Positions 17,334 through 54,738 of a DNA stretch of 60,876 nt are shown one piece after another (position 1 is the stretch's first letter; each line of letters starts with the position of its first letter). The notes below the pieces were generated by a model that worked only from the letters and a program-made list of their open reading frames with translations, was not told the DNA's origin and searched no databases. Both the position numbers and the translations under genes were made by a program. Source of the DNA: Deltaproteobacteria bacterium (GTDB taxonomy: Bacteria; Myxococcota; JADLHZ01); assembly GCA_020848545.1 (NCBI GenBank), contig JADLHZ010000153.1:1-60876 (forward strand), given 5' to 3'.

Positions 17334-17590
17334 ACTTCACCAAACGCGTCGGCCATGATGCCGTCAGCGATACGACCGGAGTCCACGATGTTCTTTCCGG
17401 TTGCGAGCGCATGCTTCAGCTCTTTCACCTTCGCCGGCGAACCCTGGTCCGCGGCTGAGAGCTCTTCGGCGAGCGCGCTAATCTGCACGCTGTCCTTGGG
17501 TGCGGCGGCGCGCGCAGCCGGCTGCTGCGCGCGCGCAGTCGTTTGCGGCTTCGCATCGAAGACGCGCGTCGAATCGTTCGTCACCTTCAT
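17330..17590 (-). CDS. flgM: Anti-sigma-28 factor FlgM
   Basis: 86 aa, the usual FlgM size. The N-terminal half is rich in Ala, Gln and Pro (disordered, the export part). The C-terminal half has the sigma-binding pattern VQISALAEELS and KVKELKHALATGKNIVDSGR-type helices ending in IADGIMADAF. FlgM blocks FliA until hook completion lets it leave through the export gate. The matching fliA is in the same operon at 22334-23056. It overlaps flgJ by four bases. Confidence 0.92.
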   Translation of the reverse strand: MKVTNDSTRVFDAKPQTTARAQQPAARAAAPKDSVQISALAEELSAADQGSPAKVKELKHALATGKNIVDSGRIADGIMADAFGEV

Positions 17591-21630: not shown

Positions 21631-22341
21631 TCAGCGCCGCGAGAGGCCCGCGGCGGTCTTGCTGTCGATTTGTTTGTAGGTGTCGATCGCGTTCATCGTC
21701 GCGTCGAAGAGTCGGTTCGTGCTGATCATCTCCGTCATCTGATGCAGCACATTCGTGTTCGAGCTTTCGAGCGTCTCGCCGCAGACCCGCCCGATGTCCA
21801 GTTGCGTGGGCCGCGCGCCGTCTTTGATCGTGAGGAGGCTACCTCCGAGCGGCCGCAGATCGCCCGCGTCGTAACGAACGAGCGAGAGCTTTTCGACGGG
21901 CTCATCGCCGTCGAGCACTTCGCCTTCCGCCGAGAACGACACCCGCGCTGCGGGGTCAACGCGGACGGGACCGTTCGCTCCAAGCACTGGCAGGCCGTCT
22001 TCGTTGACGAGCAAGCCTCCTGCGTCGACGCGAAAGTGGCCGTTGCGTGTGAGCACGGGACCGTTGTCGCTCTGCAGGCGAAAGTAACCCGGCCCGTCGA
22101 GCGCGACGTCGAGCGCGCGACCGGTGCGCACGAGGGCCCCTTGCGTGTCTTTGACACGCGTGCCGTCGACGAGCGCTTGCCTCACCTCACCTTGGCCGCT
22201 CGCGGCGAGCACCTCGCGAAACGAGAGCGCCTGCGCGCGGAAGCCGTTGCTGCTCGCGTTTGCCAAGTTGTTCGCGACGACGTCGAGCTGTTCCATCCTT
22301 GCGAGCGCGCCACTCGCGGCGTTGTAGATTCCGTCAGCCAT
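21631..22341 (-). CDS. flgF: Proximal rod protein FlgF
   Basis: 236 aa. It opens MADGIYNAASGALARMEQLD, with VANNLANASSNGFRAQALSF, LDVALDGPGYFRLQSDNGP and the end MTEMISTNRLFDATMNAIDT, as in FlgF-type rod proteins. The start at ATG 22341 has GGAGG six bases upstream; an earlier in-frame start would overlap fliA much more. As placed, it overlaps the end of fliA by eight bases. Confidence 0.94.
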   Translation of the reverse strand: MADGIYNAASGALARMEQLDVVANNLANASSNGFRAQALSFREVLAASGQGEVRQALVDGTRVKDTQGALVRTGRALDVALDGPGYFRLQSDNGPVLTRNGHFRVDAGGLLVNEDGLPVLGANGPVRVDPAARVSFSAEGEVLDGDEPVEKLSLVRYDAGDLRPLGGSLLTIKDGARPTQLDIGRVCGETLESSNTNVLHQMTEMISTNRLFDATMNAIDTYKQIDSKTAAGLSRR

Positions 22342-23056
22342 GGCGGTCCTCCGCGTCGCGCTCGCCAAGGCGCTGGCGAATGCGGTGGACGGCCTGTGCG
22401 TGCAGTTGACACACCCGCGCGGCGGTCAGGTTCATCACCTCCCCGATCTCGCGAAACGACAGGTCATGGTCGTAGTGCATGGCCATCACTTGCTGTTCTT
22501 TGAGCGGCAGAAGGTCGATCGCTTCGATCAATGCCGCTCGTAGCTCACTGCGTTCGGCTCGTTCTGCTGGATCTGAGGCTGCATCGCGCGCGTCGCGCAG
22601 CATCGGCTCTTCCGGATCTACGGCGATCGCCTTCACCGTCGCCACTGAGTCGAGCATCGCCAGGTACGCTGGCAACGCGACGCCGAGCTCGCCGGCGATC
22701 TCCTCTTCGCTCGCCGCGCGGCCGAGCTTCTGCGATGCGTTCGTCATCGCCGTCTGCAGCTTCTTCGAGAGCGTGCGCAAATCCTGCGACAGGTCGTCGG
22801 CCTTGCGCAGCTCGTCGATCATCGCCCCGCGGATGCGCAGCGTAGCATAACCGACGAAGCTGTCGGCGCGCGTCGGATCGAAGCGCTTCGATGCCTCGAG
22901 GAGGCCCATCATCCCCGCGCTCAAAAGCTCGTCGTCCCGGACGCGCGCGTGCGGTCCACGCGAGAGCTTTTGGACATGGCGGCGCACGACGGGAATCAGT
23001 GCGCGGATGACGCCGTCCCGGTCGAGCTCGTGGCTCAAGGTGATCTGACTTTTCAT
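22334..23056 (-). CDS. fliA: Flagellar sigma factor FliA (sigma-28)
   Basis: 240 aa. Region 2 (DDELLSAGMMGLLEASKRFD; YATLRIRGAMIDELRKADDL), region 3 and region 4 (LPLKEQQVMAMHYDHDLSFR, NLTAARVCQLHAQAVHRIRQ) are all in place. FliA directs RNA polymerase to late genes such as fliC and is held by FlgM. The ATG at 23056 overlaps the flhG stop (ATGA). The flhA-flhF-flhG-fliA string is common among polar flagellates. Confidence 0.96.
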   Translation of the reverse strand: MKSQITLSHELDRDGVIRALIPVVRRHVQKLSRGPHARVRDDELLSAGMMGLLEASKRFDPTRADSFVGYATLRIRGAMIDELRKADDLSQDLRTLSKKLQTAMTNASQKLGRAASEEEIAGELGVALPAYLAMLDSVATVKAIAVDPEEPMLRDARDAASDPAERAERSELRAALIEAIDLLPLKEQQVMAMHYDHDLSFREIGEVMNLTAARVCQLHAQAVHRIRQRLGERDAEDRHG

Positions 23057-23853
23057 GACACAACCTCTGCAGCGGCGGCCAATCGGCGCCAGAACGACAC
23101 GCCGCGGTTGCCGCCCTCTTCGGGATCTCTCAGGCGGCAAGCGAGCACTCGCAGGCAATGGCTGGCCGGCGCCGTCGGGCGGTCCACGACGAACGGCACG
23201 CCCTGGCGCCACGCGGCTGGGATCGCAGCGTCGCGGCAGACGTAGCCGACGAGCTCGACGCGTAGCTGCAGAAACCGCCGCGCCATCAGCTCGATAGTCT
23301 CGTAGGCGACCTGCGCGTCTGCGGCGGTCTCGACCATGTTGACGAGTAAGCGCACGCTCTTGACGGCGAAGCGCTGTGACAAGACCTTCATGGTCGCGTA
23401 TGCATCGGCCATCGAAGCGAGCTCGCGCGTGGTGACGACGATGATCTGCGACGCGGCGGCGGCGAACGTCATGGCCGTCGCACCAATACCGGCGCCGGTA
23501 TCGATGATGATCGTGTCAAAGCTGCCCTGCAGCGTCTCGACCGCATGCAGAAGACCCATCCGACGGTGCTCGTCGAGATTCGCAAGATCGAAGCTGCCAG
23601 CGTAGGCTGGGAGCAGCTTCACGCCGCATGGCGTCTCGACGATCGCGTCGGCGATCGCCACTGAGCCATCTATGACGTCGCGCAAGCTGTGCGCCGGCCG
23701 GACGTTGAAGGCGATGTTCATGTCAGCGAGGCCGAGATCGGCGTCGATCACGAGCACGCGGGCGCCGGTGTTTTGCAGCGACACGGCGAGCCCGGACGCG
23801 AGCGACGTCTTACCGACGCCGCCCTTGCCGCTGGTGATGGCAATCACGTTCAT
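23053..23853 (-). CDS. flhG: FlhG (FleN/YlxH) MinD-type ATPase
   Basis: 266 aa. The deviant Walker A TSGKGGVGKTSLASG is at residues 7-21, the second motif VLVIDADLGLADMN follows, and IIIDTGAGIG sits near 110. The C-terminus ends FWRRLAAAAEVVS, which could be a membrane-targeting amphipathic helix. FlhG limits flagellar number by acting on FlhF. The N-terminal DQAxxLR activation helix found in many FlhG proteins is absent: the ATPase begins at residue 2. It overlaps flhF by four bases. Confidence 0.93.
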   Translation of the reverse strand: MNVIAITSGKGGVGKTSLASGLAVSLQNTGARVLVIDADLGLADMNIAFNVRPAHSLRDVIDGSVAIADAIVETPCGVKLLPAYAGSFDLANLDEHRRMGLLHAVETLQGSFDTIIIDTGAGIGATAMTFAAAASQIIVVTTRELASMADAYATMKVLSQRFAVKSVRLLVNMVETAADAQVAYETIELMARRFLQLRVELVGYVCRDAAIPAAWRQGVPFVVDRPTAPASHCLRVLACRLRDPEEGGNRGVSFWRRLAAAAEVVS

Positions 23854-48386: not shown

Positions 48387-48800
48387 GTGACTTACGTTCA
48401 AGACCACACAATCGACAGTCATCTTATGAGCTTCGAGCGAATCGCCGATGGACATATTGAAGTGAGTTACACGAGCGCCGAGGATATGGCGCCAGAGCAG
48501 CAGCGGGCGTTGATCGACGCTATAGAACGCGAACTGTCTGCGAGGCGGCTCACGGTCTTGTTTCGTGTCGGATCGATCTCGGTGCCACCCGCGGTGCCGA
48601 CTTTCTGGCTGAATGTCACGAAAAAGCACGCGCCGAAGCTGCGCGCCATGGCTGTCGTATCCGACTCGGTCGCAGTGCGTGCCGCCGCAACCAGCTTCGG
48701 CATAGCCAATATTCTGCGCGGCGTATCCGTCGCAGTGAGACCGTTCAAGAACAGTGAGGTCGAGATCGCGCGACAGTGGTGTCAATCAAGCAACGCGTGA
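48387..48800 (+). CDS. SpoIIAA/STAS-like protein
   Basis: 137 aa from GTG 48387, or ~124 aa from ATG 48426; neither has a good ribosome site. The fold looks like the SpoIIAA-like (STAS/SEC14) family, with strand-helix repeats ending LRAMAVVSDSVAVRAAATSF and a closing AVRPFKNSEVEIARQW. No clear serine-phosphorylation motif is seen. Ten bases after the receiver gene and before a PP2C phosphatase gene, it fits as an anti-anti-sigma-like partner, though this is inference. Confidence 0.65.
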   Translation: MTYVQDHTIDSHLMSFERIADGHIEVSYTSAEDMAPEQQRALIDAIERELSARRLTVLFRVGSISVPPAVPTFWLNVTKKHAPKLRAMAVVSDSVAVRAAATSFGIANILRGVSVAVRPFKNSEVEIARQWCQSSNA

Positions 48801-48882
48801 GGCCGCCTCCATCCCGGCATTGCTGGCATCGATCTCGGCACACTCCACCATCAGCAATTCGCGAGCTGAGAAACAAAGAGGA

Positions 48883-48908
48883 AAGTTTTCGAGCGCGTTG
48901 TAAAACTT
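48883..48908. repeat. Inverted repeat just before the PP2C gene
   Basis: AAGTTTT and AAAACTT form a 7-bp inverted repeat with a 12-base spacer that ends four bases before the GTG start. This AT-rich patch could be an operator or part of a promoter. The surrounding 112-base gap has no clear sigma-54 or sigma-28 pair. Confidence 0.45.
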
Positions 48909-48912
48909 AGCC

Positions 48913-50079
48913 GTGAAGCGTTCGAGCCTGATTCTCCGTCTCGTCTTGCTCTCCTGCTTACCCATGCTCGTTGGTTATGGTTTGACGAGCAGCGTCGGTA
49001 TCGCGGTTGGTCTCAAGACTCAGAGCTTGCTCGGCCCCTTGCTCAATCGAGAGCCCGACGTTGCGGCACAACTGGAAGCGCATTACGATAGCATGCGTCG
49101 CGTGATGATCGGTCTCACACTCTTGACGCTCGTCGGTGCGACGGCAATGGCGGCTCTCTATTCGCGCGAGATCGGTCGCTCGATTCGGTCGATGTCGAGC
49201 GCGGCGAAGGCGATTGCAGATGGCCGATTGGACCTTGCTCCGCCACAGCCCACGCGGGTGAACGAGCTCCACACGCTAGGCGAAGCGCTTTTTGCGATGC
49301 AACAATCGCTCGTACGCGCGATCGACACCGAGCGACAAAAGGCGGCGCTCGAGAAAGAGGCCGCGGTTGGCGCAGCGGTGCAGGCGTTGTTCTTGCCGAG
49401 GAAAACGGCGCTTACCAGAGCAGGTTATGCTCTCGCTGGCTATCATCGCGCCGCCGCTATTTGCAGTGGCGACTGGTGGCATCACTGCTCGGACGATCCC
49501 GCGTACGTGCGGATCTTGCTTGCCGACGTGACGGGGCACGGCGTTGGCTCTGCCCTGGTCACGGCGACCGCGAGCGGCATGCTCGCTCAGCTCGAACGGC
49601 ACGCGCCTTCTGACCCTCGTGAGCTGCTGGAGTCGCTTCACCAGGGCATCCGCAAGCTCTGCGCCGGCGAATACAATATGTGCGTATCCCTATTGCAGCT
49701 CGATTGCGTGACCCGTGTCACGACTTGGGTCAACGCCGGCGCACCGCCGCTCTTCATTTCTAAGCCCTCGGGGGAAATCGAGGCCCATGTCGGCTACAGC
49801 ACACCGCTCGGAGGGGACGACTTGCAGTTGTCGTCCATGCGGTTTTCGCCTGACAAAGCCGCCCGCATCCTTGCTTTCACTGATGGCTTGGCGGAGCTAC
49901 AGTTGCCGACCGGAATGCCGCTCGGGCACGGTCAGCTGAAACGTTGGTTCGAAGATTCGATGAGGCTCGACGTTGTTTCGGCACGGGACGACATGGTCAA
50001 GCGAATTGATGCATGCACCGCCGGCCAGCCATTGAAAGATGACCTCACATTTGTGGTCATCACGAGCGAACGCGCATGA
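48913..50079 (+). CDS. Membrane HAMP-PP2C phosphatase (RsbU/SpoIIE type)
   Basis: 388 aa. Two transmembrane helices (about 6-34 and 63-83) enclose a short ~28-residue outer loop. A HAMP domain (84-135) follows, then a SpoIIE-type PP2C domain with CSGDWW (184-189), DVTGHGVGSALV (205-216), NAGAPP, TDGLAE and DDLTFVVI; the metal-binding acids are kept. It probably dephosphorylates a STAS-type protein, perhaps one of the two neighbours. Start is GTG 48913, lacking a near ribosome site. The stop overlaps the next gene (ATGA). Confidence 0.88.
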   Translation: MKRSSLILRLVLLSCLPMLVGYGLTSSVGIAVGLKTQSLLGPLLNREPDVAAQLEAHYDSMRRVMIGLTLLTLVGATAMAALYSREIGRSIRSMSSAAKAIADGRLDLAPPQPTRVNELHTLGEALFAMQQSLVRAIDTERQKAALEKEAAVGAAVQALFLPRKTALTRAGYALAGYHRAAAICSGDWWHHCSDDPAYVRILLADVTGHGVGSALVTATASGMLAQLERHAPSDPRELLESLHQGIRKLCAGEYNMCVSLLQLDCVTRVTTWVNAGAPPLFISKPSGEIEAHVGYSTPLGGDDLQLSSMRFSPDKAARILAFTDGLAELQLPTGMPLGHGQLKRWFEDSMRLDVVSARDDMVKRIDACTAGQPLKDDLTFVVITSERA

Positions 50080-50612
50080 GCGAATCGCGAATGCTTGTTT
50101 CGGAACGCGATGGCGTGGTGCTCGTCGAGCTCAGCGGGGTCGTCGAACAGCCGCTCGATTTCAATGCGCTTGCAAGCCGCGCGGTGCTCATGAACTTGCA
50201 GCACACCCGTCGCATTACCTCGTTCGGTGTCCGCGCCTGGAGAACGGGCATCAACGTGCTGTCTCCGCCCGTGTACTTCATTGGCGCGCGGCCACTTTGG
50301 GTGGCGCACTTCAATACGACCGCCGGCTTCGCTGGCTGCGGCGAGCTCCTTTCGCTGTTCCTCCCTTACGCGTGTCAACAGTGTAAGAACTTCTTCGAAG
50401 TTTTGTGGGATCGACGCGTCGTCGGGCCGTTCGACGGCAGCAGCCGCGTGCCGCAGCCACAGACGTGCCCAAGGTGCCGAGGCTCCGCAGATTTCGATGA
50501 CGTACCGAACGCCTATTTTGCGTGTTGTGCTCGCCAGGCGCTTACCCCTCGCTCGCCGGCGCTCGATGCGCTCATCGACAGCGAGCACCTTCGCGCGAGC
50601 GCCCCCACATGA
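50076..50612 (+). CDS. STAS-like protein with C-terminal zinc ribbon
   Basis: 178 aa. Residues 1-95 show a STAS-like fold (GVVLVELSGVVEQPLDF; RRITSFGVRAW), where Ser49 is in the place of the phosphorylated serine of anti-anti-sigma proteins. Residues 98-150 hold two CxxC pairs (CQQC at 100-103, CPRC at 131-134), a probable zinc ribbon. It is coupled by ATGA to the phosphatase gene. A substrate role for the phosphatase and the downstream RsbW-like ATPase is inferred from this gene set. Confidence 0.72.
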   Translation: MSESRMLVSERDGVVLVELSGVVEQPLDFNALASRAVLMNLQHTRRITSFGVRAWRTGINVLSPPVYFIGARPLWVAHFNTTAGFAGCGELLSLFLPYACQQCKNFFEVLWDRRVVGPFDGSSRVPQPQTCPRCRGSADFDDVPNAYFACCARQALTPRSPALDALIDSEHLRASAPT

Positions 50613-50707
50613 TGCGACGGAGCTGGTCTAGATCTAGTCGCCCATCCAGAGCGACGCGCCGAGCCGCGGTACAACGCCGCTCTCACTTCGCGGCAGGCGC
50701 GTCATGA
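50609..50707 (+). CDS. Small very basic ORF coupled on both sides
   Basis: 32 aa, MMRRSWSRSSRPSRATRRA at the start and HFAAGAS at the end, with nine Arg. Its ATG overlaps the stop of the zinc-ribbon gene (ATGA) and its stop overlaps the start of the ATPase gene (ATGA), so it fills a 91-base gap exactly. It has no clear ribosome site of its own. It may be a coupling ORF or a small basic protein. No homologue is recognised. Confidence 0.4.
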   Translation: MMRRSWSRSSRPSRATRRAAVQRRSHFAAGAS

Positions 50708-51615
50708 CGAGCCTTGGTCGCTGTTTGTTGATCGGAGACGTTGCGGAAGATGACGTCATCTATCGACGGGTTGCATTGAACGCGAGCACCGTTGCCATCA
50801 TGAGTAGTCGAGCGGGTGCGTGGCATCTCGACGGGACAGACACGCTATTTTTGTTCGCGTCACGGACTGAGCGTTCGACGCTCGACGCGATCCTCGATCG
50901 CGTCCCTCCGTCTTTGCGCGACGGACAAATCGTGGCGTTGTTCGACCGGCCGCATGGCGATCATGCGAGTCATTTGATTCAGCGAGACGTTCATCATGTG
51001 GTGAACCTCGATCACAAAAATGCCGAAAGGGATTTCGCATGGCTTCTGTCCCGCCTCGGCGTTCCCGAGACAGCGCCCGAACCGACGAGCGATTCGCTGC
51101 GGCTCGCGCGTCTGCTCGATTCGAGCGCTGCGATGTCGGATCTTCAACTCTCGACGGGCAAAGATCGAATCGATTTTTTGCGTGACATCGAGCGTCTGAC
51201 AACGCGGTCTGCGCTCCCTAAGCGGTTTTCGGAGCTACTGCAGCGCTCGGCCGAGGAGCTCATCAGCAATGCGCTTTTGGGTGCGGCGGACCAGGACTGC
51301 ATGGTCGAATCCATCATCATGACCGATGGTCGGCGCTGGATTCTGAGCGTGTCTGACGACAGCGGCACGCTCCAGTGGCCCGCGGTTCGACGTCATCTCG
51401 GCGCGGCGCTCACCGACCAAGACCTCGCGAGCAATCCATCTGGCGGTGGGCTTGGGCTATCGATGGTCCTACGAGGGTCCACGCATGTGCTCTTCGACGT
51501 GCTTGAGAACGAGCGTACGACCGTGACCTCTGTGCTGGATGTGACCGATACGTTCAGAGGCTTTGCGGAACGCGGCAAGTCGGTGTCATTTTCGAGTCAC
51601 CGAAAAAGTCACTGA
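50704..51615 (+). CDS. RsbW-like ATPase with N-terminal pseudo-receiver-like region
   Basis: 303 aa. The C-terminal half is a GHKL ATPase of the anti-sigma/serine-kinase group: N-box ELISNAL (185-191), DDSG (218-221) and the glycine lid GGGLGLSM (247-254). The N-terminal ~120 residues have a receiver-like strand order without the phospho-site. It lacks the dimerisation H-box of histidine kinases. With the STAS-like proteins and the PP2C phosphatase it completes a partner-switching set. No sigma factor gene is adjacent. The stop overlaps the convergent receiver gene by seven bases. Confidence 0.75.
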   Translation: MTSLGRCLLIGDVAEDDVIYRRVALNASTVAIMSSRAGAWHLDGTDTLFLFASRTERSTLDAILDRVPPSLRDGQIVALFDRPHGDHASHLIQRDVHHVVNLDHKNAERDFAWLLSRLGVPETAPEPTSDSLRLARLLDSSAAMSDLQLSTGKDRIDFLRDIERLTTRSALPKRFSELLQRSAEELISNALLGAADQDCMVESIIMTDGRRWILSVSDDSGTLQWPAVRRHLGAALTDQDLASNPSGGGLGLSMVLRGSTHVLFDVLENERTTVTSVLDVTDTFRGFAERGKSVSFSSHRKSH

Positions 51616-52251: not shown

Positions 52252-53292
52252 TCACGGTACGGTCGCAGACGGAACCGCGTGCGCAGCACCGCGACGGCCG
52301 TTGACCATCGCCTGACCCGAGAGCGTTAGGCGGCCGATCATGTTGAAAACGACGGGCACCGCGTGCGGAGCCGCAGCACCCGAGTCTGCTACTCGGCGTG
52401 CCACTCTCGACGTACGTAGCCTCTTCTGCACGTACATCGCAGCGTCGGCGCGGTCCAAAATCGCAGCGAGTGAATCGCTTGGCGCCGAAGACTCGGCGAA
52501 GCCCACGCTCATGCGGAGCGTGATCCCGGCGTTGGTTGCGTTGAAGCTATCGATCGCGGCTTCGAGCCGCCGTAGCGCGCCCTCGGGATCGGCGTCCATC
52601 CCTGCGACGACGAACTCGTCGCCGCCGAGGCGGGCCACAACATCGGTGGAACGAAAGGTTTCGGCGAGCACCTTGCCGGCGCTTGCGATCGCCTGATCGC
52701 CCGCCGCGTGGCCGTGTTCGTCGTTGATTGCTTTCAGACCATCGAGATCGATCGAGAACACCGTCATCTTTCCGCTCTGGCGCCGCGCGATGCCGAACAA
52801 TCGCTCGGCGTGAGCTTCAAAACCCCGCCGGTTCAGCAGCTGGGTCAACGGGTCGCGCTCCGATTCTGTGTTGAGCCGATCGAAGCGCTCGCGAGCGCGT
52901 GCACGTTCGGCCCGTTGCGACGCGGCGAGCAGAAGCGCAGCCTTGAGCTCGGCCGGGCTGAAGGGTTTGCCCACGCATCCGGAGGCGCAGCCCTCTTCTA
53001 CCAGGTGCGTAGCGATCGCCTCGTCAAGTGCGCCAGACATGTAGACAACCGCGGTGGTGCCTGCGTTCGCGATCGCCCGGCCGACCTGTATCCCGTCTGC
53101 CGCGGTGCGGAGGTTGATGTCGACCAGCGCGACGTCCGGAGAGAGCTCTGTACACGCAGCGAGAGCTTCTTCGGCGGTGTGCGCGACTGACGCTACGGAG
53201 AGACCGAAGGTGCGAATGAGACGAACCACACTGCGAGTGAAGGCGGCGTCGTCATCGACGATAAGAATGCGCGCTGCGGGAGTGGTGATCAT
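52252..53292 (-). CDS. Receiver-GGDEF diguanylate cyclase
   Basis: 346 aa. Receiver: LIVDDDAAFTR, phospho-site D58 in VALVDIN, and VGKPFSPAEL. GGDEF domain: DPLTQLLNRRGFEAH, IDLDGLKAINDEHGHAAGDQ and RLGGDEFV with the active GGDEF at 223-227. The product-inhibition site RxxD (RSTD, 214-217) is exactly five residues before it. It should therefore make c-di-GMP under feedback control. It is divergent from the MinD-PilZ gene 171 bases away. Confidence 0.9.
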   Translation of the reverse strand: MITTPAARILIVDDDAAFTRSVVRLIRTFGLSVASVAHTAEEALAACTELSPDVALVDINLRTAADGIQVGRAIANAGTTAVVYMSGALDEAIATHLVEEGCASGCVGKPFSPAELKAALLLAASQRAERARARERFDRLNTESERDPLTQLLNRRGFEAHAERLFGIARRQSGKMTVFSIDLDGLKAINDEHGHAAGDQAIASAGKVLAETFRSTDVVARLGGDEFVVAGMDADPEGALRRLEAAIDSFNATNAGITLRMSVGFAESSAPSDSLAAILDRADAAMYVQKRLRTSRVARRVADSGAAAPHAVPVVFNMIGRLTLSGQAMVNGRRGAAHAVPSATVP

Positions 53293-53463
53293 GCACCCAG
53301 TGTCGAGTCTACCCACCCGATCGATAGTCGCGCGTACTCCGACCCACCAAGACCGCGGTTGTCGCACATCAACCGACCGCTTCGTGTCGTAGCGTTCACC
53401 TGGTGCGGTTCGCCGCTTGCAAGCTCAACCGGATTTGGCGCTGATCAAGGATGCTTCGACAGC

Positions 53464-54738
53464 ATGCGCATGCGAATCGTTGCGGTCGGCGGAGGCAAAG
53501 GGGGCGTTGGCAAGAGCCTCGTCGCGGCAAATCTGGCCATTGCTCTCGCCGAAGGGGGCGCTCGGGTCGTCGCCGTCGATGCCGACCTCGGTTGCGCCAA
53601 CCTGCACGCCTTGTTCGGAATCGAGCGGCCGCGCCATACGCTCGGCGCGTTCTTTGCGCGCGAGGCGGACACGCTCGGCGAGCTAGCGATCGCGACGAGC
53701 GTTGCCGGCTTGGAGCTCGTGGTCGGCTCGGGCGCGATCGTCGGCGCGGCGAACATCTCTTGGGCGCAAAAGCAACGGCTGCTTCGGCAGATTCTCGCGC
53801 TGGACGCGGACGTGGCGGTGATCGACGTCGGCGCCGGCACGTCGTACAACGTGCTCGATATCTTCGACGTGGCCAACGTGCGATTGATGGTCGTGAGCCC
53901 CACGCTCCCGTCGGTGCAGAACGCCTTTTCGTTCTGCAAGGGTGCTGTCGTGCGCGCGCTCCGCCAAGCCTTCGTCGACGCAGGAGTAGACCCAGCGCTC
54001 GGCGAGCGGCGCGAAACCGAGCGCCTGACGGCGACCATCGCGAGGTTGTCTCTGCAGCATCCGGCCCTCGGCGCGCGGATCGCCCACGCACTTTCACACT
54101 TCAATGCGATGATCGTCGCCAACCAGCTGACCCGCGTCGAGGATCTCGATCTCGTACACGCCCTCTGCCGGATGACACACGACTTTCTCGGCGTGTCGGC
54201 GAACATCGTCGGCCAGATCTATCAGCGCCCAGCGATCGCCCAGTCTGTCATCGCGCGGCGCCCGTTCCTACTCGGCGCCGAACGGGACGATCCAGAAGCG
54301 CGCATGTTCCGCCGCATGGCGCGCACTTTGCTTGACGGCGTGTTGGCTGAGCCGGGACGTGCTTCTAAAGCTCTTCCTCCCGCGGGCGGTCCCGACATGG
54401 GCGCGTTCGATCTCGATCCCTCGGCGTTGCGCGCGCACCCCCGGCACGCAGCGGACTGGGCGGCGACGCTCGAGACCGAGAACGGCATTGTCGAAGGGAT
54501 GATCGCGGACGTGTCGGAAAACGGCGTTCGCTTCATTGGCCCGTGTGGTCGCCCGATCGCGGTGAGCGGCACGGCCATTGTGTGCGTAGCGGGGTTTTCC
54601 GGCGCCGCAGAGGCATCCGTTCGCTGGGTGAGCGCTGCCGAAGGCGGCCGACTCGTCGTCGGGTTGGAGCTCACCGGCGGATCTTTGACCGGCGAGATCT
54701 TGACGAAGAGCGCGCTCCGTTACGCCGCCGCTGGGTGA
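53464..54738 (+). CDS. MinD/FlhG-like ATPase fused to C-terminal PilZ-like domain
   Basis: 424 aa. Residues 1-300 are a MinD/ParA ATPase: deviant Walker A GGGKGGVGKSLVAANL (9-24), VVAVDADLGCANLH (35-48) and VAVIDVGAGTSYNV. A helical insert of ~40 residues follows (about 165-205). Residues 320-405 look like a PilZ domain with RAHPR (RxxxR, 323-327) and DVSENG (349-354), the c-di-GMP-binding pattern. It is a second FlhG-like protein besides the operon copy. ATG 53464 or 53470 could be the start. I infer c-di-GMP control of a positioning ATPase. Confidence 0.82.
   Translation: MRMRIVAVGGGKGGVGKSLVAANLAIALAEGGARVVAVDADLGCANLHALFGIERPRHTLGAFFAREADTLGELAIATSVAGLELVVGSGAIVGAANISWAQKQRLLRQILALDADVAVIDVGAGTSYNVLDIFDVANVRLMVVSPTLPSVQNAFSFCKGAVVRALRQAFVDAGVDPALGERRETERLTATIARLSLQHPALGARIAHALSHFNAMIVANQLTRVEDLDLVHALCRMTHDFLGVSANIVGQIYQRPAIAQSVIARRPFLLGAERDDPEARMFRRMARTLLDGVLAEPGRASKALPPAGGPDMGAFDLDPSALRAHPRHAADWAATLETENGIVEGMIADVSENGVRFIGPCGRPIAVSGTAIVCVAGFSGAAEASVRWVSAAEGGRLVVGLELTGGSLTGEILTKSALRYAAAG

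Follow-up and report, generated by a model that had tools for sequence, protein, structure and literature searches.

In Bacillus, the SpoIIAA/SpoIIAB/SpoIIE and RsbV/RsbW/RsbU systems each bring together a STAS phospho-substrate, a GHKL serine kinase and a PP2C phosphatase. In Pseudomonas aeruginosa, the HptB-HsbR-HsbA-HsbD system links a STAS switch to c-di-GMP and FlgM (PMC5085249), and in SiaABCD the phosphatase SiaA, the kinase SiaB and the STAS-like SiaC control a diguanylate cyclase (PMC8457831). An enzyme or FlgM as the target of a STAS switch has precedent, in HsbA (PMC5085249) and in SiaC and BgrV (PMC8457831). For myxobacteria, a 2010 account records very many eukaryotic-like kinases and few phosphatases, and notes that in Sorangium cellulosum such kinases are found fused to STAS domains (COG1366) (PMC2887360).

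The 60,876-nt stretch of DNA analysed here (the window) holds a run of four genes, A to D, of which B, C and D follow the logic of SpoIIAA/AB/E and RsbV/W/U: the three component types, their folds and the position of the predicted phospho-serine are shared with the Bacillus switches. The window module differs from these in that C has a predicted zinc ribbon, while in its model the first helix is almost absent and the final STAS helix missing; in addition, no Asp precedes the serine, D carries a pseudo-receiver and no sigma factor gene adjoins. Like the Hsb system, it is a STAS switch near flagellar genes, but HsbR is a single response regulator that acts as both kinase and phosphatase, roles that would here be split between D and B, and C has its predicted ribbon. 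SiaABCD is approached from two sides, as SiaA is the top NCBIfam match of B and the model of D matches SiaB. However, the score of B (31 bits) is far below the 700-bit SiaA cut-off, and SiaC is a DUF1987 protein, whereas C is a STAS domain plus ribbon with no DUF1987 match; judged by SiaA equivalog score and a DUF1987 SiaC, the window module is not a SiaABCD system. The available part of the Sorangium account is silent on the wider module, on its zinc ribbon and paired kinase D, and on the phospho-dead second copy described below (PMC2887360), and a search of the open literature, with subscription literature outside its scope, found no description of a zinc-ribbon STAS family or of its pairing with D. 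A conflict-system reading (PMC7159879) does not apply. We consider that B, C and D probably form a three-protein partner switch, whose partner would be a signalling enzyme acting on motility or c-di-GMP.

Organization of the locus

The features of the window that bear on the module are collected in Table 1. An earlier note on this DNA had placed four genes, all on the plus strand, in the interval given there for A to D, and its coordinates are correct.

Table 1. Positions in the window of the module, its elements and nearby or candidate partner genes.
Feature	Position	Strand	Basis or remark
FlgM	17354-17494	-	
FliA-like sigma factor	22334-23212	-	
Run of genes A-D	48387-51615	+	
A: SpoIIAA-like protein, 137 aa	48387..48800	+	PF11964; same gene run, outside the conserved module
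B: membrane HAMP + SpoIIE-type PP2C phosphatase, 388 aa	48913..50079	+	Pfam, motifs, hydrophobic segments, clustering of relatives
C: STAS + predicted zinc ribbon switch protein, 178 aa	50076..50612	+	AlphaFold2, Foldseek, Ser49/Cys conservation
Ser49 codon of C, predicted phospho-acceptor	50220..50222	+	SpoIIAA/RsbV alignment, 92/95 first copies
Predicted zinc ribbon of C: CQQC (residues 100-103), CPRC (residues 131-134)	50373..50477	+	Cys conservation; weak Zn_ribbon_8 matches
D: eroded pseudo-receiver + RsbW/SpoIIAB-like GHKL ATPase, 303 aa	50704..51615	+	Foldseek, invariant residues, adjacency to C
Receiver + GGDEF diguanylate cyclase, GGDEF intact	52252..53367	-	Candidate output; nearby, strand opposite to module

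Upstream of the run lie fliK, flgE, motA, motB, a sigma-54 activator gene and a gene for a receiver protein. Spacers are short (32 bp between motB and the activator gene, 10 bp between the receiver gene and A, 112 bp between A and B, 91 bp between C and D), and the reading frames of B and C share 4 bases, which fits the expectation for coupled translation. One long transcript from motB through D is possible; a scan of promoters and terminators gave sites no more numerous than in shuffled sequences. D converges with a receiver gene on the opposite strand, with a 7-base overlap, and the receiver-GGDEF gene precedes that receiver gene. The GC3 of A, B and D is 0.66-0.70 against a window mean of 0.76 (z -2.0 for D), and perhaps these genes arrived later next to the flagellar cluster. 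Nearby on the plus strand, positions 53359-54738 encode a MinD/FlhG-like ParA ATPase that ends in a PilZ domain, possibly a flagellar-placement ATPase that reads c-di-GMP.

Components of the predicted switch

C itself matches no Pfam STAS model. Its assignment to the STAS proteins is based on its relatives, of which 9/57 match STAS (PF01740) and 11/57 match STAS_2 (PF13466), and on a confident AlphaFold2 model (pLDDT 93.5, 57-sequence alignment) that resembles STAS crystal structures. The top Foldseek matches of this model, with E values of 1e-4 to 1e-3, are all anti-sigma antagonists: that of Haliangium (4hyl), and SpoIIAA and RsbV in their complexes with SpoIIAB and RsbW, respectively. Ser49, within the stretch ITSFGVRAW, is the first residue of helix 2 (residues 49-59) and shares an alignment column with SpoIIAA Ser58 and RsbV Ser56, which we take to be the phosphorylated residues of those proteins. 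The same alignment led us to drop Phe50 as the phospho-position, and with the conservation described next it bears out the original choice of Ser49.

Among 95 first or single copies of the C family, Ser49 is kept in 92, Gly51 in 93, Arg53 in 90, Trp55 in 94 and each cysteine in 92-95. An Asp before the STAS phospho-serine (DSSG/DSTG) is usual in partner switches, though not essential. It is not a feature of the C family, in which the preceding residue in the 95 copies is Asn in 45, Thr in 33, Ser in 14 and Asp in 1, and this counts against the partner-switch explanation. In 36 second copies, from tandem proteins, the serine is found in only 2 (Ala in 13, Pro in 13) and the cysteines are kept in 33-34. 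Because the serine is kept in first copies and lost in second copies, and the cysteines are kept in both, these alignments suggest that in first copies Ser49 has been selected as the switch residue, and that the ribbon is important to both copies irrespective of Ser49.

The final STAS strand leads directly into the first CxxC pair, so that the predicted ribbon would substitute for the usual last helix. The CxxC cysteines are near-invariant in the family and match Zn_ribbon_8 weakly; PDB zinc-finger matches of the C profile were rejected as homology, being mostly C2H2 fingers aligned through CxxC spacing. A STAS protein with two CxxC pairs had been called unusual from the window sequence. Unusual it is, but it is no one-off, as it belongs to a phylum-wide family found in 77/193 genomes of the phylum.

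B had been described as a membrane HAMP-PP2C phosphatase with all motifs, a description that holds. Two hydrophobic segments stand at the N-terminus, followed by a HAMP domain (31.5 bits) and a nearly full-length SpoIIE domain (PF07228, 90.5 bits, profile positions 2-190 of 192). The PP2C motifs SGDWW, DVTGHG, NAG, TDG and DDLT, including those for metal binding, are intact, as in a phosphatase of the SpoIIE/RsbU type. PP2C relatives of B also cluster with C and D at other loci.

D carries the N, G1 and G2 boxes and the catalytic Glu of a GHKL-fold serine kinase like RsbW and SpoIIAB. In Foldseek, its C-terminal part matched SpoIIAB (TMt 0.76-0.82), RsbW (TMt up to 0.87) and SiaB, and seven ATP-site residues are invariant in 20 sequences of its family (E185, N189, D218, G221, G247, G249, G251). 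The N-terminus of the family profile is a receiver (E 2.3e-6) in which the phospho-Asp is mostly missing; in the window copy this front is so eroded (low pLDDT) that it is detectable in the family profile only. An RsbW-like ATPase with a pseudo-receiver front, as first proposed, is an apt description. The window D is nevertheless divergent, with 13-23% identity to 19 aligned relatives, which counts against the partner-switch explanation.

The remaining gene fared differently. A matches PF11964 (SpoIIAA-like, 31.7 bits against a cut-off of 25) and neither of the STAS models PF01740 and PF13466 in the Pfam search. The related C/D loci hold no clear homologue of A, and a search of 58 genomes gave 3 marginal matches (E about 0.006-0.009). 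For these reasons we set A aside as lineage-specific and outside the module, to which it had been assigned.

Co-occurrence and distribution

The absence of conserved co-occurrence had been named as grounds for rejecting the module, and the opposite was found. In 97 genomes, D was fused to or adjoined a C-family gene in 18/20 non-self matches; the two exceptions are in another genome (G017, C67) and in the same genome as the window (C151, near 75.6 kb). The latter, an orphan D (L121:4956-5960), has a receiver-like front and no C-family gene in the 12 kb around it. Among clustered neighbourhoods, D is present in 23 loci and PP2C in 22, and clusters of PP2C, D and C occur in Myxococcota, Fibrobacterota, Eisenbacteria and Omnitrophota, the names of the non-Myxococcota metagenome-assembled genomes resting on their binning.

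Gene order varies among these loci, in which neighbour boundaries are approximate, the genes having been called by simple in-house scoring. The window has PP2C-C-D, and other arrangements are D-C-PP2C-TonB receptor (L043, L051), PP2C-D-C (Fibrobacteria L068, Eisenbacteria L099), PP2C followed by a D-C fusion (Omnitrophota L089), kinase-fused C followed by D and PP2C (L040, L091) and D-PP2C-C-(C+kinase) in Sorangium (L071). D-C fusions were seen at two loci, L089 and L062. Some modules (L041, L051, L043, L072) also include PhnD-like periplasmic binding proteins and TonB-dependent receptors, which suggests an outer-membrane or periplasmic input to those modules.

C-family domains were detected in 26/90 genera of the phylum and are rare outside it. 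A scan of 84,980 species genomes with one ten-residue pattern (seven-sequence C-family alignment) returned mostly Myxococcota, together with single loci in Fibrobacterota, Omnitrophota, Eisenbacteria, Bdellovibrionota and SAR324. Folds, motifs and co-occurrence are all in accord with the earlier proposal of a partner-switching phospho-module with a predicted zinc-ribbon STAS substrate.

Outputs of the family

C-family domains are fused to Ser/Thr kinases, FIST domains, or membrane or TPR tails. Among 61 immediate neighbours of C, the leading domains are PAS (18), HisKA (15), HATPase (14) and receiver (9), and no sigma family appears among the 25 of 38 neighbour families listed. No sigma gene was seen beside C/D in any related locus examined, and the window module itself has none adjacent, as had been observed before, though the window does encode a FliA-like sigma factor and FlgM. 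The same genome holds a paralogous D-C pair followed by a PAS-GGDEF diguanylate cyclase. These neighbourhoods indicate that in Myxococcota the usual connections of the module would be with protein kinases and sensors, not with a sigma factor.

In the tree, the window C groups with a kinase-fused paralogue on C31 of its own genome (95/86), within a kinase-rich clade (97/99). This placement rests on long branches, which counts against the partner-switch explanation. The paralogue, a twin-STAS-ribbon kinase, has no adjoining D, and the window locus and the kinase locus may therefore be two halves of one split module.

The final target had been left open in the earlier note, with FliA, a distant sigma factor or a motility protein as candidates. 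The expectation of a sigma factor is weakened by the wiring of the relatives to Ser/Thr kinases, PAS histidine kinases and diguanylate cyclases, and a FlgM/FliA link for the window module is possible.

Proposed mechanism and alternatives

The likeliest reading of B, C and D is a partner switch that is predicted to act on an enzyme. This target is favoured by the relatives, which are fused to Ser/Thr kinases or have PAS histidine kinases or a diguanylate cyclase as neighbours, and by the lack of sigma families among the neighbour families listed. In such a switch, D would bind unphosphorylated C and phosphorylate Ser49, and B would strip the phosphate from C when its HAMP/transmembrane input is active. 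C would bind and switch its downstream partner in one phospho-state only, with the putative zinc ribbon, in place of the last STAS helix, perhaps serving as a rigid docking surface for partners. Judging from the family pattern, the likeliest partner would be the twin-STAS-ribbon Ser/Thr kinase of the same genome or the nearby GGDEF protein, and not a dedicated sigma factor.

Two features of the window count against an enzyme target: the candidate output enzyme does not share an operon with the module, and the FliA/FlgM pair is in the window. The latter would suit an HsbA-type flagellar sigma switch, in which unphosphorylated C would sequester FlgM and free FliA, coupling B/D signalling to the late flagellar genes. 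Such a switch would also suit the position of the module, which has fliK, flgE, motA and motB upstream on its own strand. FlgM is bound by the STAS protein HsbA in Pseudomonas, where hsbA is near fliK in species other than P. aeruginosa (PMC5085249). However, fliA and flgM are 27-33 kb from the module on the other strand, none of the C relatives was found beside flagellar genes, and the neighbour families listed, as noted, are free of sigma factors; we regard this explanation as unlikely. The same genome has a second sigma/FlgM pair on a separate contig (C122, 64714-65313).

A classical switch of the RsbV/RsbW/RsbU type, with D as the anti-sigma factor for a distant sigma, would account for the fold relationship of D and C to SpoIIAB and SpoIIAA, and the genome does encode four sigma factors with region 3. 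These are one strong RpoD-like match, one unassigned 538-aa open frame and two with FlgM nearby; no sigma-B/F-like gene among them is next to a C/D pair, which, with the sigma-free C/D loci examined, makes this reading quite improbable. One might also see the four-gene set as a non-functional, decaying remnant, with C left over from a kinase fusion and the receiver of D lost, given the long branch of C among kinase-fused proteins, the poorly predicted pseudo-receiver and the low GC3 of D. Against such decay, B, C and D have open frames in which every catalytic and Cys/Ser motif is intact, B and C retain the overlap predicted by coupled translation, and we consider it very improbable.

If the partner-switch reading with an enzyme target holds, it is tempting to speculate that the window module belongs to a class of partner switches centred on Myxococcota. 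The adapter of this class would be a STAS domain with a zinc ribbon, served by a GHKL kinase and a PP2C phosphatase of its own, and its targets would be Ser/Thr kinases, histidine kinases and diguanylate cyclases in place of sigma factors. The kinase fusions would then combine a switchable and a phospho-dead STAS copy as a built-in switch, and in the window the free-standing adapter would act in trans on the kinase-fused paralogue. We put forward this wider proposal tentatively, and would not yet give it even odds. For the many eukaryotic-like kinases of myxobacteria, the STAS-ribbon family offers a candidate route of control: a switch that a GHKL kinase and a PP2C phosphatase of its own would set, and that is fused to or beside kinases across the phylum. 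For experiments, the Ser-bearing and Ser-less copies of the tandem proteins offer a natural built-in control.

Sorangium also encodes a 1640 aa protein (L071:7151-12073) that combines FIST sensor regions with two STAS-ribbon domains, and a PAS family with a Cys-rich motif recurs beside C (L037:7410-8396 and 26 loci), with HisKA-HATPase or GGDEF outputs.
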